DNA of 64,000 bases from Filomicrobium insigne (lineage in GTDB: Bacteria > Pseudomonadota > Alphaproteobacteria > Rhizobiales > Hyphomicrobiaceae): contig NZ_FNJC01000004.1 in NCBI RefSeq assembly GCF_900104305.1, positions 310,001 to 374,000 of the forward strand, written 5' to 3'. Below the pieces are notes generated by a model, which saw only the letters and a program-made list of their open reading frames with translations, did no database searches and was not told the origin of the DNA. Position 1 is the first letter of the stretch, and every line of letters begins with the position of its first letter. The position numbers were made by a program, and so were the translations under genes. Of this stretch, positions 8,931 to 32,111 are shown piece by piece.

Positions 8931-9440
8931 CTATTTTGTGAGGTGCTCTAATGAGAAGATGTGCTGCGTATCTTTTAAGGGGGCATGACATCCCCGACAG
9001 CTGTTGAGATCCTTGTTCAGCCGCTTGCCATCGGGGGAGAATATGGCGAAGTCCCAGTCGCCGTTTTTCAACTCTTCAGGGAAGGCTGAACCCCATCCCG
9101 TCCTTTTTTCCATGACTGCTACAGCTAACAATTTGTCCTTGATACGGCGTCCTAGTGAGCTCGTGATTATGTTGCCCTGCGTGTCCTTCTTAGCGGCGTA
9201 GATTTCACCAACCAGAATTGAGCCTGAGGGAAGCACCCCATCTTCCTTTGCTGCACTGAGCGCTCGGTCGTTCGCGAATAGTCGTATGATCTGATCCGGG
9301 TTCTGTACGCGGTCGAGACTCAGGTAGTTTTTGAAATCGCTGGCATAGTCTTTGGGGAACGCAATGCGCTGTTCGTTCGCGCTGGCTGCGGTTGTCGTGA
9401 TTATTGCCGCGATCGCCATGCCAAGTAATTTCCTCGACAT
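8931..9440 (-). CDS. Cytochrome P460-like periplasmic haem protein
   Basis: A 169-residue protein with a signal peptide (residues 1-21) and one C-terminal haem motif, CRGCH (148-152). The mature N-terminus (IAFPKDYASDFKNYLSLDR) and the WGSAFPEELKNGDWDFAIFSPDGK block match the cytochrome P460 fold. Characterised members oxidise hydroxylamine or bind NO using a lysine-crosslinked haem; which lysine, if any, is crosslinked cannot be read here. GGGAGGAA precedes the ATG at 9440; the longer open frame to 9551 lacks a signal-like start. It converges on the mxa operon 31 bases away. Confidence 0.75.
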   Translation of the reverse strand: MSRKLLGMAIAAIITTTAASANEQRIAFPKDYASDFKNYLSLDRVQNPDQIIRLFANDRALSAAKEDGVLPSGSILVGEIYAAKKDTQGNIITSSLGRRIKDKLLAVAVMEKRTGWGSAFPEELKNGDWDFAIFSPDGKRLNKDLNSCRGCHAPLKDTQHIFSLEHLTK

Positions 9441-9682
9441 GCTTTCCTCCCTTATCGCGCCCGCGACTGGTCTTGCCGGCATTCGGGCGGACCCTCCGCA
9501 GGACCTGTGTAGCCAAGTTGCTTGGCCGGCAAACATGCATTGATGATGCATGTTATTTCGGGGGCAAGGTTAAAGCAATATCAAATATACATCTTTTAAC
9601 TGGTCATGCATGCAGGTGTGCGTTCGCTCCGCCCGTGCAACACACTGGTGCAACGTCGATCCTGTTACGAAATGTGAGTTTT

Positions 9683-10681
9683 CTAGACCGCCGCTGTCGC
9701 CTGTTCTTTTTGAGGCTTAGCGCGCGGGGGGGCGAGAAGTGATGCCAAGGCTAAAGAGGCCAAGCGCGCTTCCGGTGGATCTGCGCGGCTCGTCAGAACG
9801 ATCGGAACCAGACCGCCTAGGACCACGCCAGCGGCACAAGCCGAACGGAAATAGACCAGCGCTTTAAAGAGTACGTTGCCGGAGACGAGATCGGGAACGA
9901 CGATTGCGTCGGCAGCACCTGCGACTTCGTCGTTTTGGAGGTTCTTCGCTTGGGCCGCAGTCTTGGACAAAATGAGGTCGAGCGCGAGCGGACCACTGAA
10001 AGCCGCGTCCGAAATGTTTTCGCGCGCCCAGTCTCTAAGCTCACGGGCTTCTTGTGCTGAAGGCACCGATGGAATTGGTTCTTCGGTTGCTGAAAGCAGA
10101 GCGACCTTTGGTTTCGCGATGCCGACGGCATGTGCAACATCGACGACGGCTCGAAGAGCCAATTTGCGTGTCTCAAGATCTGGCGCGACGTTGACAGCGC
10201 CGTCCGACAGAATGATCGGGTGGTCGCTGTGTGGTGGCGTCATGTGGAAGACGTGTACGAGGCGGCTGTCGCGGCGAATACCCGTCTGCTTATTCAGCAC
10301 CGCTTTCATCATAACGTCGGTGTGAATCTGGCCCTTCATCACGATATCTGCGCGCCCGTCGCGAACGAGCTGCATGCCGGCAAGCGCAGCGTCCTGCTCG
10401 CTGTCGGCCTCAATGATTTCGTATGGGGTGATGTCCCAGGAAAGTTTGGCGGCTTCTGCTTCGATGCGCGCGCGATTGCCGATGAGGATCGGCTCGCATA
10501 TCCCGGCGCGCACGGCGCCTTCTACGGACATCATCGGCAATGCGGCATCGGCACAAATCACGGCTGTGCGGGCCTTGCCCATCTGTTGAGCCCGCGCGAG
10601 GAGTTCGCGCGGGCATCTTGGTGTGATGTCAAGAAAATGGTGCTGGCCGCGATCGGGGGCCTTCGATTCCGAAGTTGTCAT
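9683..10681 (-). CDS. pta: Phosphate acetyltransferase (Pta) of the sulfonate operon
   Basis: A 332-residue protein of the PTA/PTB family, short form without the N-terminal DRTGG domain. Characteristic segments are DIVMKGQIHTDVMMKAVL, HVFHMTPP, DGAVNVAPDLE and GPLALDLILSKTAA. It converts acetyl phosphate and CoA to acetyl-CoA and phosphate. It lies 48 bases downstream of xsc, whose product is acetyl phosphate, so it is the final step of the sulfoacetaldehyde pathway and brings carbon to central metabolism. It is the last gene of a leftward operon. Confidence 0.93.
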   Translation of the reverse strand: MTTSESKAPDRGQHHFLDITPRCPRELLARAQQMGKARTAVICADAALPMMSVEGAVRAGICEPILIGNRARIEAEAAKLSWDITPYEIIEADSEQDAALAGMQLVRDGRADIVMKGQIHTDVMMKAVLNKQTGIRRDSRLVHVFHMTPPHSDHPIILSDGAVNVAPDLETRKLALRAVVDVAHAVGIAKPKVALLSATEEPIPSVPSAQEARELRDWARENISDAAFSGPLALDLILSKTAAQAKNLQNDEVAGAADAIVVPDLVSGNVLFKALVYFRSACAAGVVLGGLVPIVLTSRADPPEARLASLALASLLAPPRAKPQKEQATAAV

Positions 10682-10729
10682 TTGCTTCCCTCTCGTGCGT
10701 CGCGGCGCAGCCTTTTCTAGTGACGTGTT

Positions 10730-12517
10730 TTATAGAGACGCGAGAACTTGTTCAGACTGCATGTCGCCCGGCTCGATGCCAGCGACCTTCACAGGCTTCT
10801 TCATCGCATCGCGACGGAATGGTTCGCCAAGTTCCTGGTTGAGCAGAATTTCGATGAACGTGGTCACCTTATTTTCCATCTGCTCGCGCACGGCTTCCTT
10901 AAGCGCCGCTGAGAGTTCTTCCATCGTCTTCACCGTAACACCCTTGAGCCCGCAAGCATCGGCGATGCGTGCATAGCTGCACTCACGGCTGAGCTCGGTT
11001 CCGACGAAGTTGTTGTCGAACCAGAGCGTGGTGTTGCGCTTCTCAGCACCCCATTGGTAGTTGCGGAAGATTACCATGGTGATGGCCGGCCAATCTTCGC
11101 GACTGCAGGCTGTCATCTCGTTCATCGAGATGCCAAATGCTCCATCGCCAGCAAAGCCGATCACAGGAACATCCGGGCAGCCGATCTTTGCGCCGAGGAT
11201 CGCCGGGAAGCCGTAACCGCAAGGACCGAACAGGCCCGGTGCGAGATACTTTCTCGGCTCTTCAAACGTCGGGTACGCGTTGCCGATTGCGCAGTTGTTG
11301 CCGATGTCCGACGACACGATCGCATCCGCAGGAAGCGCAGACTGAATGGCACGCCAAGCCATGCGTGGTGACATGTGCTCGGGTTCGCGCTTGCGAGCTT
11401 CTTCGTTCCAGTGCGTGCCGGGATCATCGTCTTCATGGTCCATGCTCGACAACGTCTGCAGCCATGCCGACTTGGTCTGGTGGATGAGCGCCTTGCGCTC
11501 TTCGCGGCCAGCGTTACCGGCGGACGCATCCATCTTCTCGAGGATCTGCTCGGCAACTTTCTTGGCGTCGCCGCAGATGCCCACCGTGACCTTCTTCGTC
11601 AGGCCAATGCGATCGGCATTGATATCGACCTGAATGATCTTGGCCGACTTTGGCCAGTAGTCGATGCCGTAGCCCGGCAGCGTGGAGAAAGGATTGAGGC
11701 GCGTGCCGAGGGCCAGAACGACGTCCGCTTTTGCGATCAGCTCCATCGCGGCCTTCGAGCCGTTGTAGCCGAGCGGACCGCAAGCCAGTGGATGCGAACC
11801 GGGGAAGCTGTCGTTGTGCTGGTAGTTGCTGCAGACTGGAGCGTCGAGGCGTTCCGCAAGCGTCTTGCATGCGTCGATCGCGCCGGCCAGGACAACACCT
11901 GCGCCGGAGAGAATGACGGGGAACTTCGCTTCGGAGAGAAGCTTTGCTGCTTCGGCGATTGAATTGTCTGCACCGCCCGTGCGTTCAATCTTCACGATCT
12001 GCGGCAGTTCGATGTCGACGACCTGGGTCCAGAAATCACGCGGCACGTTGATCTGTGCCGGTGCCGAACCACGCCAAGCCTTGCTGATGACGCGGTTCAG
12101 AACTTCCGCAACGCGAGAGGCATCGCGGACTTCTTCCTGATAGCAAACCATGTCACGGAACAGAGCCATCTGTTCGACTTCCTGGAAGCCACCTTGGCCG
12201 ATGGTTTTGTTGGCCGCCTGCGGCGTGACCAGCAGCATCGGTGTGTGGTTCCAGTATGCCGTCTTAATCGCCGTGACAAATCCCGTTACGCCCGGACCGT
12301 TCTGGGCGATGGCCATGGCCATCTTGCCCGTTGCGCGGGTGTAACCGTCAGCCATGATGCCGGCGTTGCTTTCGTGTGCGCAGTCCCAAAACGTAATGCC
12401 GGCCCGAGGGAATAGATCGGAAACCGGCATCATCGCGGAACCGATGATGCCAAACGCGTGCTGGATGCCGTGCATCTGCAGCACTTTCACGAAGGCTTCT
12501 TCGGTGGTCATTTTCAC
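10730..12517 (-). CDS. xsc: Sulfoacetaldehyde acetyltransferase (Xsc)
   Basis: A 595-residue thiamine diphosphate enzyme. The N-terminus (MTTEEAFVKVLQMHGIQHAF, then IGSAMMPVSDLFPRAG) and the cofactor segment GDGAFGISMNEM are typical of Xsc and differ from acetolactate synthase. It cleaves the C-S bond of sulfoacetaldehyde with phosphate, giving acetyl phosphate and sulfite. The GTG at 12517 (protein start V-K-M-T-T) was chosen because AAGGA lies at good spacing; the ATG at 12511 is possible. The frame is open to 12775 but that extension is low-complexity readthrough. pta follows; sucCD-like and sauS-like genes precede. Confidence 0.95.
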   Translation of the reverse strand: MKMTTEEAFVKVLQMHGIQHAFGIIGSAMMPVSDLFPRAGITFWDCAHESNAGIMADGYTRATGKMAMAIAQNGPGVTGFVTAIKTAYWNHTPMLLVTPQAANKTIGQGGFQEVEQMALFRDMVCYQEEVRDASRVAEVLNRVISKAWRGSAPAQINVPRDFWTQVVDIELPQIVKIERTGGADNSIAEAAKLLSEAKFPVILSGAGVVLAGAIDACKTLAERLDAPVCSNYQHNDSFPGSHPLACGPLGYNGSKAAMELIAKADVVLALGTRLNPFSTLPGYGIDYWPKSAKIIQVDINADRIGLTKKVTVGICGDAKKVAEQILEKMDASAGNAGREERKALIHQTKSAWLQTLSSMDHEDDDPGTHWNEEARKREPEHMSPRMAWRAIQSALPADAIVSSDIGNNCAIGNAYPTFEEPRKYLAPGLFGPCGYGFPAILGAKIGCPDVPVIGFAGDGAFGISMNEMTACSREDWPAITMVIFRNYQWGAEKRNTTLWFDNNFVGTELSRECSYARIADACGLKGVTVKTMEELSAALKEAVREQMENKVTTFIEILLNQELGEPFRRDAMKKPVKVAGIEPGDMQSEQVLASL

Positions 12518-12590
12518 GGTGATGGTCCTTGTCCTACAGTTGACGAGTTGCACCGGATTGCCCGGTTGATGTGACAAACGTTTGTATGTG

Positions 12591-13466
12591 TTAGGCCGCT
12601 GCGAAGTGACGCGACAAGAGCGCGGGGAGCGCGCTTGGCGTGTCTGCGACCGCCACGCCGGCCTTTTCCAAAGCGGCGCGTTTGGATGGATAATCACCCT
12701 TGCCCCCGGCAACGATGGCACCGGCGTGGCCCATCTTCTTGCCTGGTGGTGATTGGCGACCCGCGATGAATGCAACGACGGGCTTCTTCATTGTGCTCGC
12801 ATATTCGGCAGCTTCTTCTTCAGCGGAGCCACCAATTTCGCCGCATAAGACGATGGCATCGGTTTTCTCGTCCGCATCGAGAATACGCAGAGCCTGAGCA
12901 GAGTTCGTTCCGATCATCGGGTCGCCCCCGACGCCGTAGAAAACGGACTGCCCCATGCCGGCCTGCGTTAGGTTCAAGCTGACGAGCGTTCCGAGGCTAC
13001 CGGAGCGCGAAATAACACCAACGCGTCCCGGTTGGAAGACACGTTCGTTGAATGCGGGCATTATACCTACGAAGCATTCGCCTGGCGTGACGAGACCCGC
13101 AGTATTCGGTCCAACTATCTGAGTTCCATTGGCTTTTGCGGCGACGTGCATTTCCATGACGTCGTGCGCAGGGATGTGCTCAGTGAGGCAGACAAGCAGT
13201 TTTGTTCCAGCTTCGCACGCGTCGATCGCTGCCGATTTGGCAAGCATTGGCGGAATGAACATTACGGAGATGTCGAAGGGGCGTTCCTTTGCCGCGTCGC
13301 GGGCTGTCGCATAGACGGGAACACCGAGGTGCTCGGTGCCGGCCTTCTTCGGGTTAACGCCACCGACCACGTTAGAGCCGTAGTCCTGCATCGCCTTGGT
13401 CCAGAAGGTCCCCTGCTTACCGGTAATACCCTGCACCAGGATTGTATGAGATTTACGTGGGATCAT
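12591..13466 (-). CDS. CoA ligase alpha subunit, SucD-like (candidate sulfoacetate-CoA ligase)
   Basis: A 291-residue homologue of succinyl-CoA ligase alpha subunit: N-terminal CoA-binding Rossmann domain (GITGKQGTFWTKAMQDYG) and the phosphohistidine site GKKMGHAGAI with H247. Family chemistry is ADP- or GDP-forming activation of a carboxylate via an enzyme phosphohistidine. It sits between an acylating aldehyde dehydrogenase and xsc, with its beta subunit 12 bases upstream. The natural substrate is therefore inferred to be sulfoacetate. Housekeeping SucD or malate-CoA ligase MtkB are alternatives, but neither would be expected in this operon. Confidence 0.85.
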   Translation of the reverse strand: MIPRKSHTILVQGITGKQGTFWTKAMQDYGSNVVGGVNPKKAGTEHLGVPVYATARDAAKERPFDISVMFIPPMLAKSAAIDACEAGTKLLVCLTEHIPAHDVMEMHVAAKANGTQIVGPNTAGLVTPGECFVGIMPAFNERVFQPGRVGVISRSGSLGTLVSLNLTQAGMGQSVFYGVGGDPMIGTNSAQALRILDADEKTDAIVLCGEIGGSAEEEAAEYASTMKKPVVAFIAGRQSPPGKKMGHAGAIVAGGKGDYPSKRAALEKAGVAVADTPSALPALLSRHFAAA

Positions 13467-13478
13467 TTCAGCACCTCG

Positions 13479-14606
13479 TCAGTTCGCAGCCGCTGCGACA
13501 GCAGCTTTGACGGCATCGTCCATAAGATCGAAAGGTTCGATGCCAAGCCGGTCCTTGACCAGTGCTACGGCTTCATCTTCTCCGGTACCGTGAATTGTGA
13601 AGAAGATCGGAACGTCAGGCTTAAGTTCCAACCACGCGGAAACAACGCCTTCTGCCATGACGTCAGTGCGGGCGAATGCGCCGCAGAAATTGACGAGCAG
13701 GCTTTTCATATTCTTGTTTTCGAGAAGGATCGAAAGCGCCGTTTTTGCCTTCGTATAAGCTTCGCCGCCGATCTCAAGGAAGTTTGCGGGCGAGCCACCA
13801 TAGTGCGCGATGGCATCCATCGTCGTCATCGTCAGGCCAGCGCCGTTTGCGAGCACACCGACCGAGCCACCGAGCTCGATGTATTTCAGGCCCTCGGCTG
13901 CGGCTGCAGCCTCAAGCGTGGTGTATTTCTCAGGGGCGGCCAGACCGATGATTTCTTGTTGGCGCGGCGCAGCACTGTCATCCACCGTGAGCTTACAATC
14001 GAGCGCAATGACGCGATTATCTTTCGTGATCACCAGTGGATTGATTTCGAGAAGCTCTGCGTCAAGTGCGCGATAGGCCTCATAGAGCTTTAACAGTGTT
14101 GAGACCAGGTCGTCCTCGACGGCATTCAGGTCCAGCCCCGAAACGGCCTGCCGCGCCGCGGCTTCGCTCAATCCCTCGGCGATCGGAATGACCACGTGCC
14201 GCATCGCGTTGGGATCAGCCTCTGCGGCTTCTTCCACGTCCATGCCGCCCATTGGAGAGAAGAGCAGCATGGGGCCTTTGGAGGCGGAGTCGTTCACGAT
14301 CGCAGCATAGAGTTCTCGCGCGATTGGCGTCTGTGCTTCGATCATGACCTTTTCGACAGGCCACCCGCCGATGGTCATGCCGATAATGTTCGAGGCATGA
14401 GTTCTGGCCTCGTCGGCGTTTGCTGCAAGCTTAATGCCGCCAGCCTTACCGCGCTTGCCTGTCGGAACCTGGGCCTTGACGACGCACGGACCAATTTCGG
14501 AAGCCGCTGCAGCAGCTTCGTCTGGAGTTTTTGCAAGACGGCTGGCAGGCACGGCGATGCCGTGGTTAGCCAGCAGCGGTTTTGCTGCGTGTTCTTCGAA
14601 GTTCAT
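13479..14606 (-). CDS. CoA ligase beta subunit, SucC-like with altered substrate motifs
   Basis: A 375-residue ATP-grasp protein homologous to succinyl-CoA ligase beta. It keeps EINPLVITKDNRVIALD, GSVGVLANGAGLTMTTMD and GGSPANFLEIGG. It departs from canonical SucC at QVPTGKRGKAGG (46-57; normally QVHAGGRGKAGG), NFCGAFARTD (306-315; normally NIFGGIVRCD) and TIHGTG (337-342; normally RLEGNN). These positions lie in nucleotide or substrate regions of the family, so a substrate other than succinate is likely. In this operon sulfoacetate is the best candidate. It probably works as a heterotetramer with the adjacent alpha subunit. Confidence 0.85.
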   Translation of the reverse strand: MNFEEHAAKPLLANHGIAVPASRLAKTPDEAAAAASEIGPCVVKAQVPTGKRGKAGGIKLAANADEARTHASNIIGMTIGGWPVEKVMIEAQTPIARELYAAIVNDSASKGPMLLFSPMGGMDVEEAAEADPNAMRHVVIPIAEGLSEAAARQAVSGLDLNAVEDDLVSTLLKLYEAYRALDAELLEINPLVITKDNRVIALDCKLTVDDSAAPRQQEIIGLAAPEKYTTLEAAAAAEGLKYIELGGSVGVLANGAGLTMTTMDAIAHYGGSPANFLEIGGEAYTKAKTALSILLENKNMKSLLVNFCGAFARTDVMAEGVVSAWLELKPDVPIFFTIHGTGEDEAVALVKDRLGIEPFDLMDDAVKAAVAAAAN

Positions 14607-14628
14607 TGTTTGCGGCCTTCTTTCTTAT

Positions 14629-16080
14629 TTATTTGCCGTAGCGCTGCCAGTAGGGGCCGAACAGCTCCTCCTCTGACGGCTTGTCCTCTGGAATGGTCGT
14701 CACCAGGTGGGTGATGTTGATGAAATGGCGGTAGTTGAGGTTCTCGGTGATGGTGTTGCCGGCCCAGGTGCCGCCACCCATCGACAGCGTGAACGGCAGG
14801 GCGTTGTTGAAGCCGCCACCATTTCCAAATGTGTGTGCCTGATTGACGAGAATGCGCACGACATCGGTATCCGCCGCCAGTTCGCGTGCGTGGTCGAGAT
14901 TTTTCGTATGGATACCGGCAGAGTGGCCCTTGCCGGTCACTTCCAATACGTCGTGCACGATGCGCTTCGCATCGGCAAAGTCCTTGGCGCGATAGACCGT
15001 GAGGACCAGCGAAAGCTTCTCATCTGCAAAGGTATGCTTGCCGTCGATATGGTCTTCTTCGACCATGAAGAACTTTGACTGTTCAGCCTCTGGAGCCAGG
15101 CCAAGGGCCTTCGCGGTGACGTCAGGGTCCCTCGCGATGACGTGGCGGTTGAGCTTGCCATCAATCCATAGCTTTTCAGAAACCTTGTCGCGTTCTTCTC
15201 TCGTGCAGCGCCAGCCCCCGGCCCGGGTTAACGCGGCGATCGCATCCTCGTAGATGTCATCAAGGATGATGACCGAGTTTTCCGATGAGCATGATGTGGA
15301 GTTGTCGAAGATCTTGGATGCGCAGATTTTCTCAGCGGCATCGTCGAGGTCTGCGGTGGAGTCGATGATGACCGGAACGTTGCCGGCGCCGACGCCGATC
15401 GCAACCGTGCCCGACTGCATGGCCCGCTTGACGTTATTCTGAGAGCCCGTGACGACGGCCAAGTCTACCTGGTTCATGAGTTCCTGCGTCGTCTCCTTCG
15501 AGACGGGGGCAGGGAGGAGTTGAACCAGATCTTCTGGATGGCCGGACTTCTTCAGCTCGGCGCGCATGAATTCGACGGTCTTGGCTGTCGTGATCTGTCC
15601 CGAAGGTGAGGGGGCAATGATCACGGCGTTGCCGCCCTTGATCGCCATCATGGCTTTGTTGACGGGCGTGGCAGCTGGATTGGTCGAGGGGCAAACAGCG
15701 GCAACGACGCCGACTGGCTTGCCATACTTCACCATGCCGCGTTCTGGATTTTCTTCGATCACGCCGACCGTTTTGGCCCGAAGCAGGTCGCGCAATGTCC
15801 CGAATGTTTTGCGCGTGTTCTTGATGATCTTGGAGGGTACGTTGCCCAAGCCCGTATCTTCCACGGCCATCTCAGCCAGAAACTTCGCGTTTTCGGGCTT
15901 ATAGATCGACCACGCTAGGGCGCGGACAGCGTCGTCTACGCGTTCCGGATCGTGGTTCTCGTAAGCCTCCATCGCGGCGCGCGCTCGGCGCACAAGCTCC
16001 GCAACAATCTCCTTTGGAGACAGGTTGGTCTGAGCGGTTTTGTTTCCCGATACTTCTAGTGTCGATGCTTCAGATGTCAT
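14629..16080 (-). CDS. sauS: CoA-acylating aldehyde dehydrogenase, SauS-like sulfoacetaldehyde dehydrogenase
   Basis: A 483-residue member of the acylating aldehyde dehydrogenase family (EutE/AdhE N-domain type). The catalytic cysteine is C264 in STSCSSENSVI, and KPVGVVAAVCPSTNPAATP and GNGGGFNNALPFTLSMGGGTW are typical of the family. The expected reaction here is NAD(P)H-dependent reduction of sulfoacetyl-CoA to sulfoacetaldehyde, as for SauS. The call rests on its place between tctA and the CoA-ligase genes, with xsc in the same operon. An acetaldehyde or propionaldehyde role is possible from sequence alone. Confidence 0.8.
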   Translation of the reverse strand: MTSEASTLEVSGNKTAQTNLSPKEIVAELVRRARAAMEAYENHDPERVDDAVRALAWSIYKPENAKFLAEMAVEDTGLGNVPSKIIKNTRKTFGTLRDLLRAKTVGVIEENPERGMVKYGKPVGVVAAVCPSTNPAATPVNKAMMAIKGGNAVIIAPSPSGQITTAKTVEFMRAELKKSGHPEDLVQLLPAPVSKETTQELMNQVDLAVVTGSQNNVKRAMQSGTVAIGVGAGNVPVIIDSTADLDDAAEKICASKIFDNSTSCSSENSVIILDDIYEDAIAALTRAGGWRCTREERDKVSEKLWIDGKLNRHVIARDPDVTAKALGLAPEAEQSKFFMVEEDHIDGKHTFADEKLSLVLTVYRAKDFADAKRIVHDVLEVTGKGHSAGIHTKNLDHARELAADTDVVRILVNQAHTFGNGGGFNNALPFTLSMGGGTWAGNTITENLNYRHFINITHLVTTIPEDKPSEEELFGPYWQRYGK

Positions 16081-16182
16081 CGTTGTCTCCAGCGCGAAGT
16101 GAATTCGGCGAAGTTGCCGCGTTCAAAAAATGGGACATTGCGTCTTGTTTTTGTGTCATGACGATTGTCGCGAGTCAAGGTG

Positions 16183-16209
16183 CGTCGAAGGCGAAATTCG
16201 CCTTCGACG
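16183..16209 (-). other. Perfect 13-bp inverted repeat between tctA and sauS
   Basis: CGTCGAAGGCGAA (16183-16195) and TTCGCCTTCGACG (16197-16209) form a long stem with a tiny central loop in the 154-base gap between tctA and sauS. No T-run follows on the coding strand, so it does not look like a simple terminator. It may stabilise or process the transporter mRNA relative to the catabolic genes. Confidence 0.6.
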
Positions 16210-16234
16210 GCCGTGTTTGCCGGCATGTTGCCGG

Positions 16235-17758
16235 TTAATTCGATTGCGTAGTTTGAGCGTTTATCTCGCTCGTACGTTTGAAACGGGATGAGATGGCCGG
16301 ATACAACGACCAGAGCACGAACGCGGCGGCCAACGCGAGGATAGTTCCGCTGATCGGGCGCTCGACGAAGATCCAGAAATTATCTTCGTAGTTTGCAAGC
16401 GACGTCAGGAAGTAGCGCTCTGCCAACGGGCCGAGAATTACGCCCAGAACGAGCGGAGCCGTCGGGAAGTTTGCGCGCTTCATGATGAAGCCTAGGACGC
16501 CGAAAATCAGGCATACGTAGACGTCGAAAATATTGTTGCGGACGCCGTAGGCCCCGACGACGGACAATACGATGATAAAGGCCCCGAGGATGGCGGGGGG
16601 AACCTTCATCAACGTAGAGAAGCCGCGGGCGACGACGACGGCAGCTATGATCATCAGGAAGTTGGCGATGATCATGCTAACGAAGATCGTATAGACCAAT
16701 GATGGATCCATGCGGAACAGCAACGGCCCCGGATTAATGCCGTGGATGAGCATCGCAGCCAACATAATCGCGGTTGCTGCGCTGCCTGGGATGCCGAGCG
16801 TCAGCAGTGGGATCATGGCCGCACCAGTGGTTGCGTTTTTAGCGGCTTCGGGAGCAGCAAGCGCCTGTTCGACGCCCGTACCGAACTCGGCGCCGCGACC
16901 CGAGGCCTGACGTTCCACGCCGTAGGCCAGAACCGCGCCGACGGTGGCGCCTGCGCCTGGGATCATGCCGACCATGCAACCCAGACCTGAGCCACGCAGC
17001 ATTGATCCCTTGTACTGCCAGAGTTCACGCCAGGTGATCTGTTTGCCTGGTTTGGGTGCGAACGAGCTCTTCAGGTTTACGTTTTTTGCCAACAGGTCGA
17101 CGACCTCGCCAATGGCGAAAAGACCGATCATCACGACCGTGAAGTTGATCCCGCTTTCAATTTGCGGGATTCCAAAGGTGAAGCGGCTAAGGCCATGATG
17201 AGGATCAATGCCGACGCAACCGATCACCAGCCCGATGAACATAGAAAGGGCGCTGAGGACCGGCATGTCCTTTGCGATTGCCACGACGCTGGCGAGACCG
17301 AGGATGGTTGCCGCAAAAAATTCCGGTTGGTCGAACCGTAATGCAAAGGCAGCGAAGGGCGGGGATCCGACGGCGAGCAAGATTGCCGACAGGAGGCCAC
17401 CAGTAGCAGAGGCCGTAATCGCGATGCGTAACGCACGCGTCGAAAGGCCTTTGACCGTCATAGGATAGCCGTCCCAGCACGCGGGGAGTGATGCGGGTGT
17501 ACCGGGAATGTTGATGAGGATCGAAGAGATCGATCCGCCGAATACGCCACCTGCGTAGATGCCCCCGAGGAAGCACATCGCCGTGACCGGTTCCATTACA
17601 TAGGTAAAAGGCAGAGCCATCGCCATGGCGTTGACGAAAGAGATGCCTGGTAACGCGCCTGCGATGGTGCCCATCATCAAGCCCGTTATGAGGATCAGGA
17701 AGTTATGGGGCTGGAGGGCTCCATGCAGACCGGTCAAGAAAAGAGAAAGGAGATCCAT
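16235..17758 (-). CDS. TctA-type large membrane subunit of a tripartite tricarboxylate transporter
   Basis: A 507-residue integral membrane protein with about 11-12 predicted helices. It shows the TctA signatures GALPGISFVNAMAMALP near the N-terminus and GMIPGAGATVGAVLAYG in the middle, which form the two pseudo-symmetric substrate loops. With TctB and the TctC binding protein it makes an ion-driven carboxylate importer. It starts 11 bases after tctB and leads into sauS, so the cargo is inferred to be a C2 sulfonate such as sulfoacetate; family members also take citrate and other acids. Confidence 0.93.
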   Translation of the reverse strand: MDLLSLFLTGLHGALQPHNFLILITGLMMGTIAGALPGISFVNAMAMALPFTYVMEPVTAMCFLGGIYAGGVFGGSISSILINIPGTPASLPACWDGYPMTVKGLSTRALRIAITASATGGLLSAILLAVGSPPFAAFALRFDQPEFFAATILGLASVVAIAKDMPVLSALSMFIGLVIGCVGIDPHHGLSRFTFGIPQIESGINFTVVMIGLFAIGEVVDLLAKNVNLKSSFAPKPGKQITWRELWQYKGSMLRGSGLGCMVGMIPGAGATVGAVLAYGVERQASGRGAEFGTGVEQALAAPEAAKNATTGAAMIPLLTLGIPGSAATAIMLAAMLIHGINPGPLLFRMDPSLVYTIFVSMIIANFLMIIAAVVVARGFSTLMKVPPAILGAFIIVLSVVGAYGVRNNIFDVYVCLIFGVLGFIMKRANFPTAPLVLGVILGPLAERYFLTSLANYEDNFWIFVERPISGTILALAAAFVLWSLYPAISSRFKRTSEINAQTTQSN

Positions 17759-17769
17759 TGGTTAGCCTC

Positions 17770-18309
17770 TCAGTAGATGCGCAGCACGCGATAGAGCGAA
17801 ATCGTCCATTGATTAAAGGGTTCGACGCCGCGGTTGAGAGGCATCTTGGCCAGGGCAACGAACATGTAGAGAAGGACGATTGTACCGATGATGCTGACAA
17901 GGCTGATGGTTATGGGCGACCGGATCTGGCCCATGAGGCACCAGGTCACGATAAAGAGGAATGTGGCCAGTGCGAAGCCCAGGTAAGGGATTGCAAAGCC
18001 GTAAATCAGGATCACCCCGACTCCGGCGATGGCCATAACGGCTGAGCCGTTATTTGCCTTTTCGCCGTTTTGTGTTGTGTCGTTCCCGTCGCGCGCACTG
18101 ATGCGCCAGTTGTTTAATTCGACAAGGAACGCAAGCAGGGAGAAAAATGCCAAGCCGGCCAACATGGCTTTGGGCCACCCGCCAGGGCCGACGGCATTAG
18201 GAACGTTAAGCATGGCGGGGTTTGAGGCGATGTGCGTCCACAAGAATGCGCAGGCCAGCAGCATCGACAGAGGGAACGCTGTACGGATCAGGCGTTTTGA
18301 AGATGTCAT
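17770..18309 (-). CDS. TctB-type small membrane subunit of a tripartite tricarboxylate transporter
   Basis: A 179-residue protein with four predicted transmembrane helices separated by a polar loop (residues about 67-87, NWRISARDGNDTTQNGEKAN), the usual layout of TctB. It is poorly conserved in sequence across the family; identity comes from topology, size and position directly upstream of tctA. It is separated from tctC by a terminator-like hairpin. Confidence 0.88.
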   Translation of the reverse strand: MTSSKRLIRTAFPLSMLLACAFLWTHIASNPAMLNVPNAVGPGGWPKAMLAGLAFFSLLAFLVELNNWRISARDGNDTTQNGEKANNGSAVMAIAGVGVILIYGFAIPYLGFALATFLFIVTWCLMGQIRSPITISLVSIIGTIVLLYMFVALAKMPLNRGVEPFNQWTISLYRVLRIY

Positions 18310-18471
18310 CTTTTATCGATCTCGGTGTGCGTCGTCGGGTGGGCGGCGCGTCTCAGCAGGAAGTGCGCGGCTATACCGTAACCAGTCCAGTGCCAAAGTG
18401 ATCAGCGCTGGTTAGTCGGGCGCATCGTAGTCAGCAGACGGTGCAGGCATATTTTGCCGTGCGAGGTCTTA

Positions 18472-18507
18472 AAAACGAAAGCCGGCGTCGCGATAACGCG
18501 ACGCCGG
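18472..18507 (-). terminator. Intrinsic terminator/attenuator after tctC
   Basis: An 11-bp perfect stem, CCGGCGTCGCG (18482-18492) and CGCGACGCCGG (18497-18507), with a 4-nt loop. On the minus strand it is followed by a T-rich run (complement of 18472-18480). It lies just downstream of tctC and upstream of tctB. Partial termination would yield more binding protein than membrane subunits. Confidence 0.8.
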
Positions 18508-18522
18508 GTAGTCCAATCATCA

Positions 18523-19527
18523 TCACTTTTTCTTCGACGCGCTCTTTTCTTCGGCGGTCGTGGGGAAGCGCTCCAGATAGGATTTTACCGTTTGGTAGAA
18601 CTTCGCAACGGTTTCCTTGGTCTCTTCAGGAGAAAGAGGCTTGGTGCAGGTGTAAGTTCCTTCGCAGAATTCTTTCCATTCTGGCGAAGCGAGGATTTTG
18701 TTTGCAGCTTCGTTCAGCACTGCAACGCGATCAGCGGGAGTCTTGGACGAAACAGCGATGGTTCTAAAATTTGGAAGGTCGTTGATTTCGAGGCCGTTTT
18801 CTTTCGACGTTTCGATATCGGGGAACGACTCGTGGCTCTTTTCGTCAAACACAATGAGCGGACGCAGGTCGCCGGATTTGAGGAACTGCGCGACGTCGCC
18901 GGGTTCTTCGTAGATCATGTCCGTATGACCGCCGACGGCAGAAGCATAGCGCTCGGCGGGCTTACCAAACGGTACGTTCACGATCTTCACGCCCTTGGTG
19001 GCTAGGTACTTTAGCGTGATGTCGTCCATCGTGCCGTAACCCGACGTTGCGCACCGCAACTTGCCTGGGTTGGCTTTCGCGAATTCAGCGAGGTCCTTGT
19101 AGGATTTGAACGGGCTGTCCTTACGGACGAACAACATCGAGGGCGAGCTCTGCATCATGCCGACATAGGCAAACTCATCCGGGTTGTGATTCCCGATTCC
19201 GGCTGCCCATGCAGAGACCGAAAGTGCGATAAGTGTCGCTGCGCTGTGTCCATCACTCGAGTCCGTGAGCAGGCGGGTGAGGCCAGCGTTGCCGGAAGCG
19301 CCGGATACGTTGGCGACAGGCAGAGGAACGCCGAGAATGGGTTCTGCGAGCTGCGCAAATTTACGACCCATCAAGTCCGCGCCGCCGCCGGGACCGAAGG
19401 TAACAATCATATCAATCGGCCGGGACGGGTATTTTTCATCGGCCGCGGCTTGCGTCGCTACGCCGCCGAGTACCAATAGCGCAAGGGTCGAGGCGCAGGC
19501 CGCCTCGCGCAAGGATCGTCTTAGCAT
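18523..19527 (-). CDS. TctC-type periplasmic binding protein of a tripartite tricarboxylate transporter
   Basis: A 334-residue secreted protein of the Bug/TctC family. It has a signal peptide, then YPSRPIDMIVTFGPGGGADL and VANVSGASGNAGLTRLL, the two loops that grip carboxylates through ordered water in this family. The ATG at 19527 has GGAG upstream and opens the signal peptide directly; the longer frame to 19593 does not. It is the first gene of the leftward operon and is divergent from an IclR regulator. Confidence 0.93.
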   Translation of the reverse strand: MLRRSLREAACASTLALLVLGGVATQAAADEKYPSRPIDMIVTFGPGGGADLMGRKFAQLAEPILGVPLPVANVSGASGNAGLTRLLTDSSDGHSAATLIALSVSAWAAGIGNHNPDEFAYVGMMQSSPSMLFVRKDSPFKSYKDLAEFAKANPGKLRCATSGYGTMDDITLKYLATKGVKIVNVPFGKPAERYASAVGGHTDMIYEEPGDVAQFLKSGDLRPLIVFDEKSHESFPDIETSKENGLEINDLPNFRTIAVSSKTPADRVAVLNEAANKILASPEWKEFCEGTYTCTKPLSPEETKETVAKFYQTVKSYLERFPTTAEEKSASKKK

Positions 19528-19994: not shown

Positions 19995-20822
19995 GTGGAG
20001 ACGCACTGGAGAATGAAAAAACAAAACGAAAAATCTCTAGCCTCTAAGTCGGCGGGTGAGGGTGACAGTTCAGATCGGCTGTCCGCGCTTGAAAAATCTA
20101 TGCTTGTTATTGAGGCAATCGTGGACCATCCGCAGCCGGTCAGCTTGCCAGAGTTAACGTTGCGTCTTGGCATGCCACGCCAGACGATTCACAGGCTGCT
20201 CCAGCAATTGACGGATAACCGGCTCATTGTTCGTGATGCTTCGCGAGATCGTTATACTGTGGGTCCGCGTTTGTCTCATTTGGCATTCGCTACGTTGCGC
20301 TCACGTAATCAGACGGCGCCGGTCCGGGCAATTTTGTCCGCCCTCGTTGACGAAACCGGCGAGACCTGCAACGTCGGCGCGCTCGATGGCTGGGATTTTG
20401 TCTATCTGGAACGCATTGAATGCGAGTGGTCACTTCGCGTGCATCTTGTTGCGGGATCGCGCGTGCGAGCGCATAGCACATCAGGCGGTAAGGTCATGCT
20501 TGCCTACCTTGAGCCCGGAGTTCGCAAAACGCTTCTTCAATCCCGAAAGCTAGAGTCGTTCACGCCCAACACAATCACTAATTACGCCAAACTGGAGCAG
20601 CATTTGGCCAGCGTGCGCGAGTTGGGTTATGCGTTGAATGACAAGGAGCAGAACATCGGCATCGTCGGCGTCGCCGTGCCAATCTTGGATGAACACGGCA
20701 CCGCGCTGGCGGCACTTGCATTGCACGGCCCTGAATCGCGTCTCACGGCGAAGACTGCTGTGAAATATGTGCCAACTCTCCAGCGCGCCGCCAAAAAGCT
20801 TGCGGCAGTCTGGACCCGGTAA
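19995..20822 (+). CDS. IclR-family transcriptional regulator of the sulfonate operon
   Basis: A 275-residue IclR protein: winged helix-turn-helix at about residues 28-88 (SLPELTLRLGMPRQTIHRLL) and a C-terminal effector domain with VDETGETCNVGALDG, HSTSGGKVMLAYL and GIVGVAVPI. It is transcribed divergently from tctC, which suggests control of the tct-sau-xsc operon with a sulfonate or pathway acid as effector. The start is uncertain: GTG at 19995, or ATG at 20013 which has GGAGA too close upstream. It converges on the GntR gene. Confidence 0.9.
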   Translation: METHWRMKKQNEKSLASKSAGEGDSSDRLSALEKSMLVIEAIVDHPQPVSLPELTLRLGMPRQTIHRLLQQLTDNRLIVRDASRDRYTVGPRLSHLAFATLRSRNQTAPVRAILSALVDETGETCNVGALDGWDFVYLERIECEWSLRVHLVAGSRVRAHSTSGGKVMLAYLEPGVRKTLLQSRKLESFTPNTITNYAKLEQHLASVRELGYALNDKEQNIGIVGVAVPILDEHGTALAALALHGPESRLTAKTAVKYVPTLQRAAKKLAAVWTR

Positions 20823-27957: not shown

Positions 27958-28335
27958 TGCTTGTGCTAACCGCCCTGGTTTTCAAAACTCTGAAAATCGC
28001 GTACGACTTCTACTGCGCACGTGATTGGCGGAGGCAGAGTTCCTGGGCCGCGCGCAGAGTTCGCATTGGTGGGCGTGATTCTTAACTCAATAAGTATAGA
28101 ATCGGCAATGCAAAGCTGCTAATTTTTTTGTTATTGAGTTCTCCGTGATCATGTTGTCAAACGGGCACATGGTATTTTTCAATCGATGCTCGTGCCTTTG
28201 AAAATTCCGCTCGCTCAGCTGTCGGCGGATACTCTGTAGGCGGACAATTACCCCTCCTAACGGTGACTGAGTTTTTATCCGCTTGCTGCTGCGGCGCGGG
28301 AGGTGCAATGTCCGCTGCCTTGCTGCGAGGGGAAG
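27958..28335. promoter_or_regulatory. Divergent TonB receptor/tauE intergenic region with 10-bp inverted repeat
   Basis: A 378-base gap between divergent genes with no credible small gene. It contains AACTCAATAA (28084-28093) and its exact reverse complement TTATTGAGTT (28131-28140), separated by 37 bases that include a T7 run. The element could be a paired operator allowing looping or an RNA stem. No known regulator motif matches. Confidence 0.45.
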
Positions 28336-29061
28336 ATGACACAAGAGTTGATCGCTGCCGTTGGGATTGCTGTGGCGGCAGGTTTATTGCGTGGGTTTGC
28401 TGGCGTCGGTTCCGGCATGTTTATGGCGCCGTTCTTTGTCCATCTGTTTGGACCGGTCCAAACAGTTGGCATCATCATCCTCATCGAGATTGTTGCGACA
28501 GCTCAGTTGTTGCCCTCGGTACGCAACGACATTCAGTGGCGTATGATCTCGCCGATGGGATTAGCAGCCGCGGCGCTCATGCCGTTGGGAGGATGGTTTC
28601 TCGTTAGTCTCGACCGAGCTAGTATCCAGTTTGGCGTTGCGCTTCTGGTCTCGTTGTCGGCGCTGCTCTTAATGAGTGGTTGGCGCTATGAAGGGCGCCG
28701 TCCCACGATGCTGAGTGTTGCCGTGGGGGGGCTCTCTGGATTTTTGATGGCGGTGACGAGCCTCGGAAATCCTCCGGTCATGGTCTATCTTCTGTCGAGT
28801 GACGCGCCAGCTCGGGTCAATCGTGCGAACTTCACTGGATACTTTGCGCTTACGCTTGTGGCTCTTATAGCCCTGATGAGTTTGCGCGGGTTGATTACGC
28901 GAGATGTTCTCTTCACGGCCGTGGCGTTGATGCCCGGCTTTTTGCTTGCCACCTGGCTCGGCAGTCGCATGTTCCGGTCTTCCAACGAACTCACCTATCG
29001 GCGCGTGGCGCTGGGTATTCTGCTGCTCGCGGGACTCTATGGGATATATCTGTCGATGTGA
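28336..29061 (+). CDS. tauE: TauE/SafE family sulfite/organosulfonate exporter
   Basis: A 241-residue membrane protein with about eight helices in the two-repeat TauE/SafE layout. Repeat motifs are GLLRGFAGVGSGMFMAPFF at the N-terminus and GGLSGFLMAVTSLGNPPVMVY in the middle. TauE-type proteins are thought to export sulfite released by Xsc, protecting the cell. The gene is 16 kb from xsc but inside the same sulfonate-rich island, between it and the TRAP/GMC operon. GAGGGGAAG immediately before 28336 decides the start. The family also includes transporters for other anions. Confidence 0.75.
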   Translation: MTQELIAAVGIAVAAGLLRGFAGVGSGMFMAPFFVHLFGPVQTVGIIILIEIVATAQLLPSVRNDIQWRMISPMGLAAAALMPLGGWFLVSLDRASIQFGVALLVSLSALLLMSGWRYEGRRPTMLSVAVGGLSGFLMAVTSLGNPPVMVYLLSSDAPARVNRANFTGYFALTLVALIALMSLRGLITRDVLFTAVALMPGFLLATWLGSRMFRSSNELTYRRVALGILLLAGLYGIYLSM

Positions 29062-29082: not shown

Positions 29083-29913
29083 CTAGACGTCATCCTTGTC
29101 CGCGTCGTCGGTGGGCAGCGTGTCTTCCAAATCTGCAGCGGCGTTTCTCAACGACGGGAGGAATGAGAGGATTTGGTCGAGCGTCAGCCGCGCTGTCGGG
29201 CCGTGACACGCTATGCCGGCGACAACGCGTCCCTGCTTGTTGCGCACCGGGACAGCCAGCGCGACGAGCCCTTCAAGAAACTCCTCGTCGTCGATGCTGT
29301 AGCCGCGTTTGCGGATCAATTCGATCTCTCGCTCCATCGCGTCCAGGTCCGTTATGGTGCGCGGTGTGTGCGTGGGCAGCTGTGTAACCGAGAGCAATTT
29401 CTGCCGTCGGGCCCGGTTCATATCGGAGAGGAAAAGTTTGCCGCTGGCTGTGCAATGGAGCGGCACCATCGAACCTGGCTCTAGATGCATGCGAAGCGGC
29501 CAGCGTGATTCGACACGGTCAATGTAGATGGATTGATCGTGGATGCGCATGGAGAGATTGCAGGTTTCGCCGATCTCGTTGACGAGCTTCTGAAGGATGG
29601 CGCGGCGTTCCGGTTTCATGCCGGCGTTTACGACTTCAAGGCCGAGGTGCCAAAGGCGATGGCCCACACCGTAGTGCCGGCTGTCGATATCTCTCAGCAA
29701 ATAGCCCGCTGCTTCGAGCTGCTGGCACATGCGGTGTACAGTTGGCTTGGGTAAGCCGATCTTGGCTGCGATCTCTGCGACCGAGAGAGTTCCTTCGTTT
29801 TCTGCGACAGCCGATATGACGCTCATGGCGCGCAGCATTACCGAGCTCGTTTCCCGTTCCTCAGCCTTTGGCCGTGTGCGCGAGGGTCCAAGTTTTGCTT
29901 TTGCTAGGGGCAT
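29083..29913 (-). CDS. IclR-family transcriptional regulator of the TRAP/GMC operon
   Basis: A 276-residue IclR protein with the winged helix (LSVAEIAAKIGLPKPTVHRMCQQL without its last residues, about 43-62) and effector domain motifs GETCNLSMRI, HCTASGKLFLSDM and GLVALAVPV. It is divergent from the TRAP transporter gene and resembles the other IclR gene in the window. It most likely controls the TRAP/GMC operon. It converges on tauE, with only 21 bases between the stops. Confidence 0.9.
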   Translation of the reverse strand: MPLAKAKLGPSRTRPKAEERETSSVMLRAMSVISAVAENEGTLSVAEIAAKIGLPKPTVHRMCQQLEAAGYLLRDIDSRHYGVGHRLWHLGLEVVNAGMKPERRAILQKLVNEIGETCNLSMRIHDQSIYIDRVESRWPLRMHLEPGSMVPLHCTASGKLFLSDMNRARRQKLLSVTQLPTHTPRTITDLDAMEREIELIRKRGYSIDDEEFLEGLVALAVPVRNKQGRVVAGIACHGPTARLTLDQILSFLPSLRNAAADLEDTLPTDDADKDDV

Positions 29914-30257: not shown

Positions 30258-31478
30258 ATGGAGCTTAAGGCAAAGGGATTGAGCCGACGGGACCTCGGCC
30301 GCATAGCGTTCCAATACGGATGGACCTCAACGCTCTTTGCTCTGGCAGGGATGTCGGGTGTCGTCACTGCCAGCAGCTTGGCGCGGGCAGCGGAAGAAAC
30401 TGCTAAGAAGCGGAAACCGGCGAAGCACACGCTGAAATTCGGTGCGTCGGGCTTTAACGAGAACAACCTGAATATTCAAAAATCGGGGCAGTTATTTTTT
30501 GCAAAGGATCTCGAGGATCGCACCGACGGTGAAATTCGTGTCGAGTTCCTGGGTTCCAACCAGATCTGCGGTCAGCTCGATTGCGTGCAGAAGACGCAGC
30601 AGGACATTGTACAGATCTTTTCGGCGTCGACTCAGAACTCCGCAGGCAACGCGCCGTACTACAACGTTCTCGACTTTGCCTACATGTTCCCTACACGGGC
30701 TTCGCAGTATCACTTCTTTTACAGCCCGAAGAGCAACAAGGTCTTTCGTGAGCCGCTAGAAGCTCGCCACAAGATCAAGTTCCTTTTTACGCACTGCGAA
30801 CTTCGTGGCCTGATGCTCGGCAAGAAGTGGGCTGATAAGCCTGTCGTTACCAAGATTGAAGATCTCGCTGGCACGAAGAACCGCGTTACCGGCACACAGC
30901 TTGGCCGTATCGCGATGCAGCTTTTGAACCTCAATCCCGTTCCGATCGCTTGGGAAGAAACGCTCGATGGTTTGCGCCAGGGGCTGATCGACGGCGCGGA
31001 AACTTGGATGGGTGCTGCGGCCTATGCCAACATGACGCCAGTTCTCGGGCAGGCGGTTGATCTCCGCTTCTTCTGCGGGACGGAACACACGGCCATGAGC
31101 GCTCCCGTCTTCAACAAGCTCGAGCCGCATCTGCAGGATGCCATCATGGAATCGTCTTACACCGCGCAGGTGCACGTCCAAGGCTGTCACGAAGCGGCCC
31201 TGGTCGACATCGTGGGTGCAACGAACCCGCCGCGTCCGGGAACGTTGTTCAATGAGTACGGCGTCAAGGTCGCCGTGCTTTCGAAGGAAGAGCTGAAGAG
31301 GGCCGAGCAGATGTGCTCGCCTGAGTTCAAGCCGGAGCCTTGGGAGCAATGGCGTGAACGGTTGAACGGCTGGTCCGGCGGACAGGACGTCTACAAGACG
31401 ATCTACGACATCGCTCGCGAAATCCCAGAGGATACGAGCCCGGTGAACGTGCCTCCGCAGCGCTGGTGGAAGGCATAA
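30258..31478 (+). CDS. TRAP transporter substrate-binding protein (DctP family)
   Basis: A 406-residue periplasmic binding protein. The N-terminus has a twin-arginine motif (SRRDLGRIAFQYGW) before a hydrophobic stretch, suggesting Tat export. The DctP fold shows in NRVTGTQLGRIAMQLLN, with the arginine that usually ion-pairs the substrate carboxylate or sulfonate nearby, and in GLRQGLIDGAETW. It begins a rightward operon with the two TRAP membrane subunits and a GMC oxidase. Isethionate is the inferred ligand from context. Confidence 0.9.
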   Translation: MELKAKGLSRRDLGRIAFQYGWTSTLFALAGMSGVVTASSLARAAEETAKKRKPAKHTLKFGASGFNENNLNIQKSGQLFFAKDLEDRTDGEIRVEFLGSNQICGQLDCVQKTQQDIVQIFSASTQNSAGNAPYYNVLDFAYMFPTRASQYHFFYSPKSNKVFREPLEARHKIKFLFTHCELRGLMLGKKWADKPVVTKIEDLAGTKNRVTGTQLGRIAMQLLNLNPVPIAWEETLDGLRQGLIDGAETWMGAAAYANMTPVLGQAVDLRFFCGTEHTAMSAPVFNKLEPHLQDAIMESSYTAQVHVQGCHEAALVDIVGATNPPRPGTLFNEYGVKVAVLSKEELKRAEQMCSPEFKPEPWEQWRERLNGWSGGQDVYKTIYDIAREIPEDTSPVNVPPQRWWKA

Positions 31479-31567: not shown

Positions 31568-32098
31568 ATGTCCGTGATTGTGAAGCCGTTCAAGTGGCTT
31601 GACGCCAATCTTGAGCGATATCTCATCATTCTCGCCTACGGCACCATGACTTCGATCATTTTCGTCGAAGTAATTCAGCGCTTTGCCTTCAATCAGCAGG
31701 CGCCATGGTCGACAACGATTCCCGTTTATCTGTTCGTTTGGATCACGTGGATCGGGGCGGCTTATAACGTTCGGCGGCGCAGCCATCTCGCTTTTACCGA
31801 GCTGCGGGCTTCAATGCCTTACGTGCTTCAATTTCTATGCACGTTGCTCGATCACATTCTCTGGATCGGCTTTGGCACGATGGTGATCTACTATTCGATC
31901 GATCTTGTTCAGCTGCTTCGCGACAACTACGCGATCGTTCCGGGCACCGACGATGTGATGCAGTGGTGGTTCTATCTCGCCATTCCGGTGGGTTGGGGGA
32001 TGCTCGTTCTGAGATCACTCCAAAATATCATCGAGGATATCGGACGTTTTTGGCGTAGTGAGCCGTTCACGTTTACCGCCTCCATTGGCAGCAACTAA
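31568..32098 (+). CDS. TRAP transporter small permease (DctQ family)
   Basis: A 176-residue membrane protein with four helices. The family motif appears in QQAPWSTTIPVYLFVWITWIG, followed by RRSHLAF, the usual E-E-x-x-R-x-W-x-x-x-G/A-x-H block in variant form. DctQ subunits connect the binding protein to DctM in the sodium-driven TRAP system. It lies 89 bases after the binding-protein gene and 13 bases before dctM. Confidence 0.9.
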   Translation: MSVIVKPFKWLDANLERYLIILAYGTMTSIIFVEVIQRFAFNQQAPWSTTIPVYLFVWITWIGAAYNVRRRSHLAFTELRASMPYVLQFLCTLLDHILWIGFGTMVIYYSIDLVQLLRDNYAIVPGTDDVMQWWFYLAIPVGWGMLVLRSLQNIIEDIGRFWRSEPFTFTASIGSN

Positions 32099-32111
32099 GG
32101 GCGGGGAAACG

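Follow-up and report, generated by a model that had tools for sequence, protein, structure and literature searches.

The window analyzed here, 64,000 nucleotides of Filomicrobium insigne (contig NZ_FNJC01000004.1, positions 310,001 to 374,000), carries a sulfoacetate-type operon at 9683-19527, which consists of eight open reading frames (ORFs) on the minus strand in the order tctC-tctB-tctA-sauS-sauC-sauD-xsc-pta. An earlier note on this DNA, made from the sequence alone, had listed eight same-strand genes in this order, and all of them were found when the ORFs between 6.3 and 35.1 kb of the window, plus one ORF to the right of 35.1 kb, were scanned. In the direction of transcription the intergenic gaps are tctC-213-tctB-11-tctA-154-sauS-22-sauC-12-sauD-79-xsc-48-pta (in bases), counted with the ATG at 12511 as the start of xsc; an alternative start is the GTG at 12517.

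Genes of the sulfoacetate-type operon

The first three genes encode an importer of the tripartite tricarboxylate transporter (TTT) type, and all three products exceed the Pfam gathering scores (TctC, 85.4 versus 27 bits; TctB, 60.6 versus 29.1 bits; TctA, 463.8 versus 28.9 bits). The periplasmic binding protein, of the SauX/Y/Z type, is encoded by tctC (18523..19527; 334 amino acids; PF03401, 6e-24) and has as its best match in the PDB the TTT substrate-binding protein 25hk (6e-36). The small membrane protein encoded by tctB (17770..18309; 179 amino acids; PF07331, 2e-16) shows 37-40% identity to annotated TctB proteins encoded on Indioceanicola and Azospirillum plasmids. In the case of the large permease encoded by tctA (16235..17758; 507 amino acids; PF01970, 6e-139), the identity to annotated TTT permeases of the same cluster on these plasmids is 72-74%.

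SauS (14629..16080; 483 amino acids), an acylating sulfoacetaldehyde dehydrogenase, scored 796.7 bits with the NCBIfam equivalog NF047625 (cut-off 600), and Xsc (10730..12511; 593 amino acids), the sulfoacetaldehyde acetyltransferase, scored 970.8 bits with TIGR03457 (cut-off 676.4) and 1052.7 bits with PRK07525 (cut-off 620). By these family models the identity of both proteins is without doubt. Apart from the operon copy, no Xsc of the genome scored over the cut-off, two other matches reaching 285 and 238 bits. The last gene, pta (9683..10681), encodes a short phosphate acetyltransferase (332 amino acids; PF01515, 1.5e-31), which came closest to PRK08190 (280.8 bits, just below the cut-off of 282) and scored lower with the remaining Pta/Ptb models; an annotated homologue (43-44%) is present in the same cluster on the Azospirillum and Indioceanicola plasmids. 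Between sauS and xsc lie the genes for the two subunits of an ADP-forming acyl-CoA ligase, the sauC-like gene (13479..14606) for the beta (ATP-grasp) subunit of 375 amino acids (PF08442 and PF00549) and the sauD-like gene (12591..13466) for the alpha (CoA-binding, phospho-His) subunit of 291 amino acids (PF02629 and PF00549).

The earlier note had assigned TTT import, ADP-forming activation, SauS, Xsc and Pta to this operon, which, at the level of sequence comparison, is well supported: the family models agree with it, the ligase is tied to SauS, and the cluster recurs in other genomes. As it had also stated, the operon lacks SauT and SauU: no gene for an AMP-forming ligase or a major facilitator superfamily (MFS) protein was present among the ORFs scanned from 6.3 to 35.1 kb (for SauU no search of the whole genome was made), and the sauRSTU-type arrangement of SauT and SauU next to SauS did not occur among them. 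In the whole genome, the best match to one SauS-linked SauT-like protein was 33% identical over part of the length only.

The SucCD-like ligase and its association with SauS

Compared with the NCBIfam models, the operon pair is not a SucCD by the cut-offs for both subunits together. The SucC-like subunit missed both succinate-CoA ligase models (357.5 bits, cut-off 370; 323.2 bits, cut-off 375.55) and remained far from the malate-CoA ligase model PRK14046 (295.8 bits, cut-off 604), which sets it apart from MtkAB; the SucD-like subunit barely exceeded one succinate-CoA ligase model (339.0 bits, cut-off 336) and stayed under the other (339.3 bits, cut-off 353.2). Five SucC-like genes are present in the genome, namely, the housekeeping copy, the malate-CoA ligase copy, two distant ones below the cut-offs, and the window copy. 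The housekeeping SucC, which adjoins malate dehydrogenase, reached 595 bits (cut-off 370), and the MtkA copy reached 704.5 bits (cut-off 604). As proper copies of both enzymes exist elsewhere in the genome, a role of the operon pair as the housekeeping or serine-cycle enzyme was ruled out.

A maximum-likelihood tree, built quickly from 104 rows, placed 71 of them on the SauC side of a branch with an SH-aLRT (Shimodaira-Hasegawa-like approximate likelihood ratio test) support of 100, apart from 33 others including SucC and MtkA; the tree has long branches, and the distant paralogues L051 and L052, which stand beside the SauC clade, may be misplaced. The SauC side comprises the window, 66 loci (67 before one partial SauC was dropped, besides duplicate loci), three plasmids and genome G199. 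The residues of the ligase were compared in E. coli numbering. The catalytic His is kept in 67/67 SauD rows, alpha Glu208 in 67/67 and beta Glu197 in 71/71, so that the pair has the succinyl-CoA-synthetase domains together with the catalytic His and the power-helix Glu expected of SauCD. Other positions are changed as a block: alpha Cys123 is Thr in 67/67 SauD rows and Cys in 31/31 others, the Glu of the TYEA motif is Leu in 67/67 SauD rows, beta Ala269 is Thr in 71/71 SauC rows and Ala in 31/31 others, and beta Gly321 is Ala in 71/71 SauC rows. L051 and L052 were left out of these counts, which are not independent because the rows are related by descent. On our reading, alpha Cys123 would be the position of the P-x-C loop, and the other block-changed positions would line the substrate pocket; in a structural comparison of the superfamily, the P-x-C loop is one of the reference loops located close to the bound substrate (PMC11494057).

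The two distant paralogues have settings of their own. L051 (G000:C9:893000-901000) is a second distant SucCD-like pair, with a beta subunit under the cut-offs, just upstream of a gene for a NuoF-like flavoprotein. L052 (G000:C5:1000-13000) is a lone SucC-like subunit accompanied by a formyl-CoA transferase over the cut-off, a putative formyltransferase-like ORF and a thiamine pyrophosphate enzyme below the cut-offs of all listed models, for which acetolactate synthase and 2-hydroxyacyl-CoA lyase scored best and oxalyl-CoA decarboxylase lower. This gene set possibly reflects C1/C2 acyl-CoA chemistry in a methylotroph.

The association of SauC with SauS was analyzed in 397 genomes of the order, an even draw that included the window's own genome, with a SauC match defined by an E value of up to 1e-95 and, as in the phylum search, at most four candidates scored per genome. 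SauC was found in 34 of the 397 genomes (identity 57-100%), SauS over the cut-off in 50, and both in 33 (Fisher p 2e-34, relatedness ignored and before the correction for G463). In the 34th SauC genome, G463, the end of SauS is clipped by the start of the contig. In 29 of the 34 cases the SauC gene starts -1 to 164 bases behind SauS, and with G463 it lies directly behind SauS in 30. Among the matches listed for a phylum sample of 398 genomes, SauC exceeded 43% identity in two (100 and 61%), both beside SauS; SauS was over the cut-off in six genomes of this sample. We also inspected 97 nonduplicate SauS stretches, comprising 20 stretches from the 22 relatives beyond the window's genome with SauS over the cut-off (G005 and G007 were left out) and the 80 best from a set of at least 570 relatives, minus L055, L126 and L073 as copies of L040, L042 and L041. 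SauC follows on the same strand in 69 of them, a SauT-like AMP-forming gene in 9, and neither in 12; of the rest, 4 stop at that point, SauT lies at a greater distance in 2, and SauC is on the opposite strand in 1. The sample is biased because most stretches were picked for likeness to the window's SauS. By its position in the tree and by this genomic tie, the SucCD-like pair belongs to a distinct clade tied to SauS and is probably a SauCD.

Recurrence, regulation and neighboring genes

The earlier note had proposed a search for the same eight-gene synteny, and the full set was indeed found in identical order (tctC, tctB, tctA, sauS, sauC, sauD, xsc, pta) in Pararhizobium haloflavum (L058), where three further genes follow downstream of pta, one each for a molybdoenzyme, a 4Fe-4S protein and a DmsC-like anchor. 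The domains of this trio were computed; we call it SoeABC-like. The part from tctC to xsc is kept in three relatives, L028 (up to the contig end), L040 and L117. On plasmids of Azospirillum brasilense and Indioceanicola the order is pta-tctC-tctB-tctA-sauS-sauC-sauD-soeABC-like with xsc nearby, and on a Rhodococcus plasmid (Actinomycetota) sauS-sauC-sauD occurs with xsc, a phosphotransacetylase gene and a TauE/SafE gene. The annotation on all three plasmids reads succinate--CoA ligase for the beta and "CoA-binding protein" for the alpha subunit. In some related loci an acetate kinase gene follows. Because the same genes co-occur in other genomes, their grouping in the operon is more than chance.

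Within the genus, sauS-sauC-sauD is constant and the importer is variable. TctC and TctA of G003 are 82% and 88% identical to those of the window; in G001, G002, G006 and G008 the TTT set is another one (TctA 34-36%), with its genes in a different order. In four stretches of the same genus (L029, L030, L039 and L043), a different TTT set stands ahead of the conserved sauS-sauC-sauD, which amounts to a swap of the importer module.

Divergently from the operon, at 19995..20822 on the plus strand, lies a gene for an IclR-family regulator (PF01614/PF09339), a candidate SauR, whose homologues (48-79%) adjoin TTT/SauS genes in nine stretches. Sigma-70-like promoters were no more frequent than expected by chance (4 observed versus 3.8 in shuffles). 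Just behind tctC, at 18482..18507 on the minus strand, there is a GC hairpin with an 11-bp stem (10 G-C pairs; z -4.5) followed by a T-rich stretch; the region scanned for hairpins contains 20 terminator-like sites versus 11.7 in shuffles. Hairpins of different sequence occupy the same place behind tctC in L028 (z -2.7) and L040 (z -4.6). The stretch between tctA and sauS (16150..16234, minus strand) contains a perfect 12-bp hairpin without a T run (z -6.4). Through the hairpin behind tctC, more of the binding protein than of the permeases may be made.

At the start of the window lies a gene for cytochrome cL that scored over the cut-off of the MoxG model. Beside it is a MoxJ-like ORF that missed its cut-off (174.8 bits, cut-off 258.1) and matched the model in its second half only. 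Genes for MoxR-type AAA, DUF58 and VWA proteins come next, as in an mxa-type group. Three pyrroloquinoline quinone-dependent alcohol dehydrogenases over the cut-off are encoded in the genome, one of them just to the left of the window. Together with the malate-CoA ligase, these genes agree with the methylotroph named in the earlier note. The mxa-type group and the operon are parted only by a gene for a cytochrome P460-domain protein (8931-9551, minus strand), which is convergent with a beta-propeller gene. On another contig of the genome there are SoeA-like (62%), SoeB-like (70%) and DmsC-like/SoeC-like genes with open frames of 1029, 249 and 315 amino acids. The SoeB-like match carries one TGA, and the gene is not broken because the open frame of 249 amino acids begins behind this TGA.

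At 28303-35086, beyond the coordinates given in the earlier note and 9-15 kb from the operon, lies a cluster of the isethionate type together with a gene for a TauE/SafE exporter. The exporter (28303..29061, plus strand; PF01925, 2e-24) is a candidate sulfite exporter. Next to it lies a second IclR regulator gene, candidate iseR (29083..29913, minus strand; 41-44% to the IclR of roseobacter-type clusters), followed on the plus strand by a tripartite ATP-independent periplasmic (TRAP) transporter and a dehydrogenase. The TRAP trio comprises a DctP binding protein, candidate IseK (30258..31478; 65-68% to roseobacter-type clusters), a small permease, candidate IseL (31568..32098; 43-44%), for which the NCBIfam scan gave no match, and a large permease, candidate IseM (32058..33395; 55-56%; TIGR00786, 332 bits, cut-off 268). 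The GMC flavin dehydrogenase (33479..35086; PF00732 and PF05199), candidate isethionate dehydrogenase IseJ, scored 626 bits with PRK02106, over the subfamily cut-off of 605, and missed the choline dehydrogenase equivalog TIGR01810; it shows 72-73% identity to the GMC proteins of IclR-TRAP-GMC clusters, one of which is flanked by xsc and pta. The IclR protein, the TRAP trio and the GMC protein all match clusters on Ruegeria, Leisingera and Paracoccus seriniphilus plasmids, in agreement with an iseRKLMJ architecture, and the P. seriniphilus cluster has xsc on both flanks and pta near. Among PDB entries, the DctP protein matched the 2,3-dihydroxypropane-1-sulfonate (DHPS)-binding protein 24gc first (8e-12) and the isethionate-binding protein 8t9t third (3e-10), which is why DHPS stays a possible ligand. 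Of the 69 sauS-sauC stretches, 7 contain GMC genes (at least 350 bits), and such genes also occur near sulfoacetate genes in L206, L207 and L211; in L069 the sulfoacetate and isethionate-type modules, with a TRAP trio, are found together.

Between the two sulfonate clusters lies a gene for a flavoprotein resembling flavocytochrome c sulfide dehydrogenase (22197-23567, plus strand). As a 50% homologue is also found beside the sulfoacetate operon of L206, there may be a connection with sulfur oxidation.

Proposed pathway and comparison with known systems

From the gene identities, the ligase clade, the genomic context and the conserved catalytic residues, all observed directly, we infer substrates, direction and regulation as follows. 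Very probably, the operon serves to import sulfoacetate and to degrade it to acetyl-CoA and sulfite, with the second cluster feeding the same Xsc. TctC would capture sulfoacetate, and TctB and TctA would carry it inward. In SauCD, ATP would phosphorylate the active-site His, and sulfoacetyl-CoA, ADP and Pi would be formed; SauS would reduce sulfoacetyl-CoA to sulfoacetaldehyde, Xsc would cleave the C-S bond to give sulfite and acetyl phosphate, and Pta would convert the latter to acetyl-CoA. The sulfite could be exported by the TauE/SafE protein or oxidized by the SoeABC-like molybdoenzyme encoded elsewhere in the genome, and the divergent IclR protein probably controls the operon. Isethionate would enter via the TRAP transporter and be oxidized to sulfoacetaldehyde by the GMC dehydrogenase; as only one Xsc over the cut-off is present in the genome, it would have to share the operon Xsc, on which both sulfonates probably converge.

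Several observations weigh against this proposal. SauS is on a different contig from SauC in 4 of the 34 SauC genomes (G017, G039, G482 and G515), and the four stretches examined there show the ligase pair without SauS, in three cases with an IclR gene beside it; conversely, SauS is present without SauC in 17 genomes of the order sample. Within the DNA examined, xsc (at least 600 bits) occurs in only 21 of the 69 sauS-sauC stretches. A single transcript is not assured because two strong hairpins split the operon, and a gapped-palindrome search of nine divergent regions found nothing conserved that could be a shared IclR operator. HpfYZ, a pair of the same superfamily, is reported to be specific for 3-sulfopropionate and to reject sulfoacetate (PMC11489063). 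The parallel with Bilophila wadsworthia drawn below was made by description, not by sequence; Bilophila was not represented among the loci retrieved.

The specificity of HpfYZ bears on a reading in which ligase and importer serve 3-sulfopropionate, succinate or malate and the SauS/Xsc neighborhood is secondary. Besides HpfYZ as a 3-sulfopropionate ligase of this superfamily (PMC11489063), the SucD-like subunit that lies just over one succinate-CoA ligase cut-off speaks for it. The tight genome-wide tie to SauS and the separate housekeeping SucC and MtkA over their cut-offs argue against it, and so does Xsc, which acts on a C2 aldehyde, leaving this reading highly improbable. We regard as equally improbable that SauS and SauCD run in reverse, like SqwD/SqwKL, so that surplus sulfoacetaldehyde, for instance from isethionate, would be oxidized to sulfoacetyl-CoA and leave the cell as sulfoacetate, yielding ATP and NADH. 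Such a reversed direction of the reaction pair has been reported (PMC12890257, PMC11489063), and with the GMC/TRAP cluster a candidate source of sulfoacetaldehyde is nearby; however, an operon with a TTT importer at its head and Xsc and Pta at its end fits consumption, as do the SoeABC-like or acetate kinase genes added in some related loci. The single Xsc and the closeness of the isethionate-type cluster would also be consistent with Xsc and Pta working mainly for isethionate or taurine and the sulfoacetate genes being a silent or rarely used passenger, but xsc and pta are located in the sulfoacetate operon and not in the isethionate-type cluster, and several relatives as well as Pararhizobium share the order sauS-sauC-sauD-xsc, so that this reading has the slimmest chance of all.

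The aerobic fate of sulfoacetate is usually described by way of the genes of Cupriavidus necator. On balance, we favor the wider view that many Alphaproteobacteria, and some Gammaproteobacteria and Actinomycetota, would have a dedicated ADP-forming clade for aerobic sulfoacetate mineralization, cheaper by one phosphoanhydride bond than SauT, and that in this methanol oxidizer the only Xsc would be a hub for sulfoacetate and isethionate. Sulfoacetate arises from taurine metabolism in some bacteria (PMC12625764) and from the fermentation of sulfoquinovose (PMC12890257). If the ligase is indeed a SauCD, a common sulfonate route would be hidden in public annotation as "succinate--CoA ligase" and "CoA-binding protein," as read on the three plasmids, which a family model and a few diagnostic residues would correct, and a methylotroph would have a C2-sulfonate diet encoded beside its methanol dehydrogenase genes.

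C. necator H16 reportedly has the sulfoacetate gene set sauRSTU. SauS, SauT and SauU are named in PMC12625764 and SauR in PMC7057948, and according to a title cited in the latter the C. necator route passes through sulfoacetyl-CoA and sulfoacetaldehyde. The window shares SauS and these intermediates but has SauCD and the TTT importer in place of the AMP-forming SauT and the MFS protein SauU. The earlier note's view of a variant with a different importer and a different activation therefore stands relative to the SauT/SauU route, with which alone the note compared the operon; as a novelty it does not, since B. wadsworthia and the metagenome-assembled genome (MAG) of a sponge symbiont precede it. 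For B. wadsworthia, SauCD and SauS together with the TTT importer SauXYZ have been reported (Liu et al. 2023, via PMC12890257 and PMC12625764), so that by description it resembles the window in its ADP-forming sulfoacetate-CoA ligase, SauS and TTT importer. Its sulfoacetaldehyde is processed via TauF and the glycyl radical enzyme IseG (PMC12890257), whereas the window has the oxygen-tolerant Xsc and, with Pta, an aerobic ending instead; a 2019 paper states that no Xsc homologue was found in sequenced Bilophila species (PMC6453916). The sponge-symbiont MAG OTU3 has a cluster of sauSCD with TTT genes (PMC12625764) and thus the same combination of SauS, SauCD and TTT as the window, but the account in its section 17 describes no Xsc-Pta operon or adjoining isethionate cluster. 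SqwD-SqwKL of sulfo-TK/sulfoquinovose fermenters run towards sulfoacetate release (PMC12890257, PMC11489063), i.e., the same two reaction types as SauS-SauCD in the opposite direction.

In Ruegeria pomeroyi, SPO2355-2359 are annotated as iseR, iseM, iseL, iseK and iseJ for isethionate (PMC4334477), IseJ being a membrane-bound flavin-dependent dehydrogenase (PMC6453916). The second cluster of the window likewise groups genes for a regulator, TRAP K/L/M and the dehydrogenase; the comparison was made with the Ruegeria, Leisingera and Paracoccus plasmid homologues and not with the R. pomeroyi genes directly. In the window the dehydrogenase gene stands behind the TRAP genes in the same orientation, whereas it is divergent on these plasmids. 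In the papers that a literature search listed, no description of this operon from a methylotroph was noticed, by which absence from print is not claimed. Activation by SauCD and TTT import are already known; what is added here is their junction with Xsc-Pta in a methylotroph, the recurrence of this cluster and its isethionate-type neighbor.

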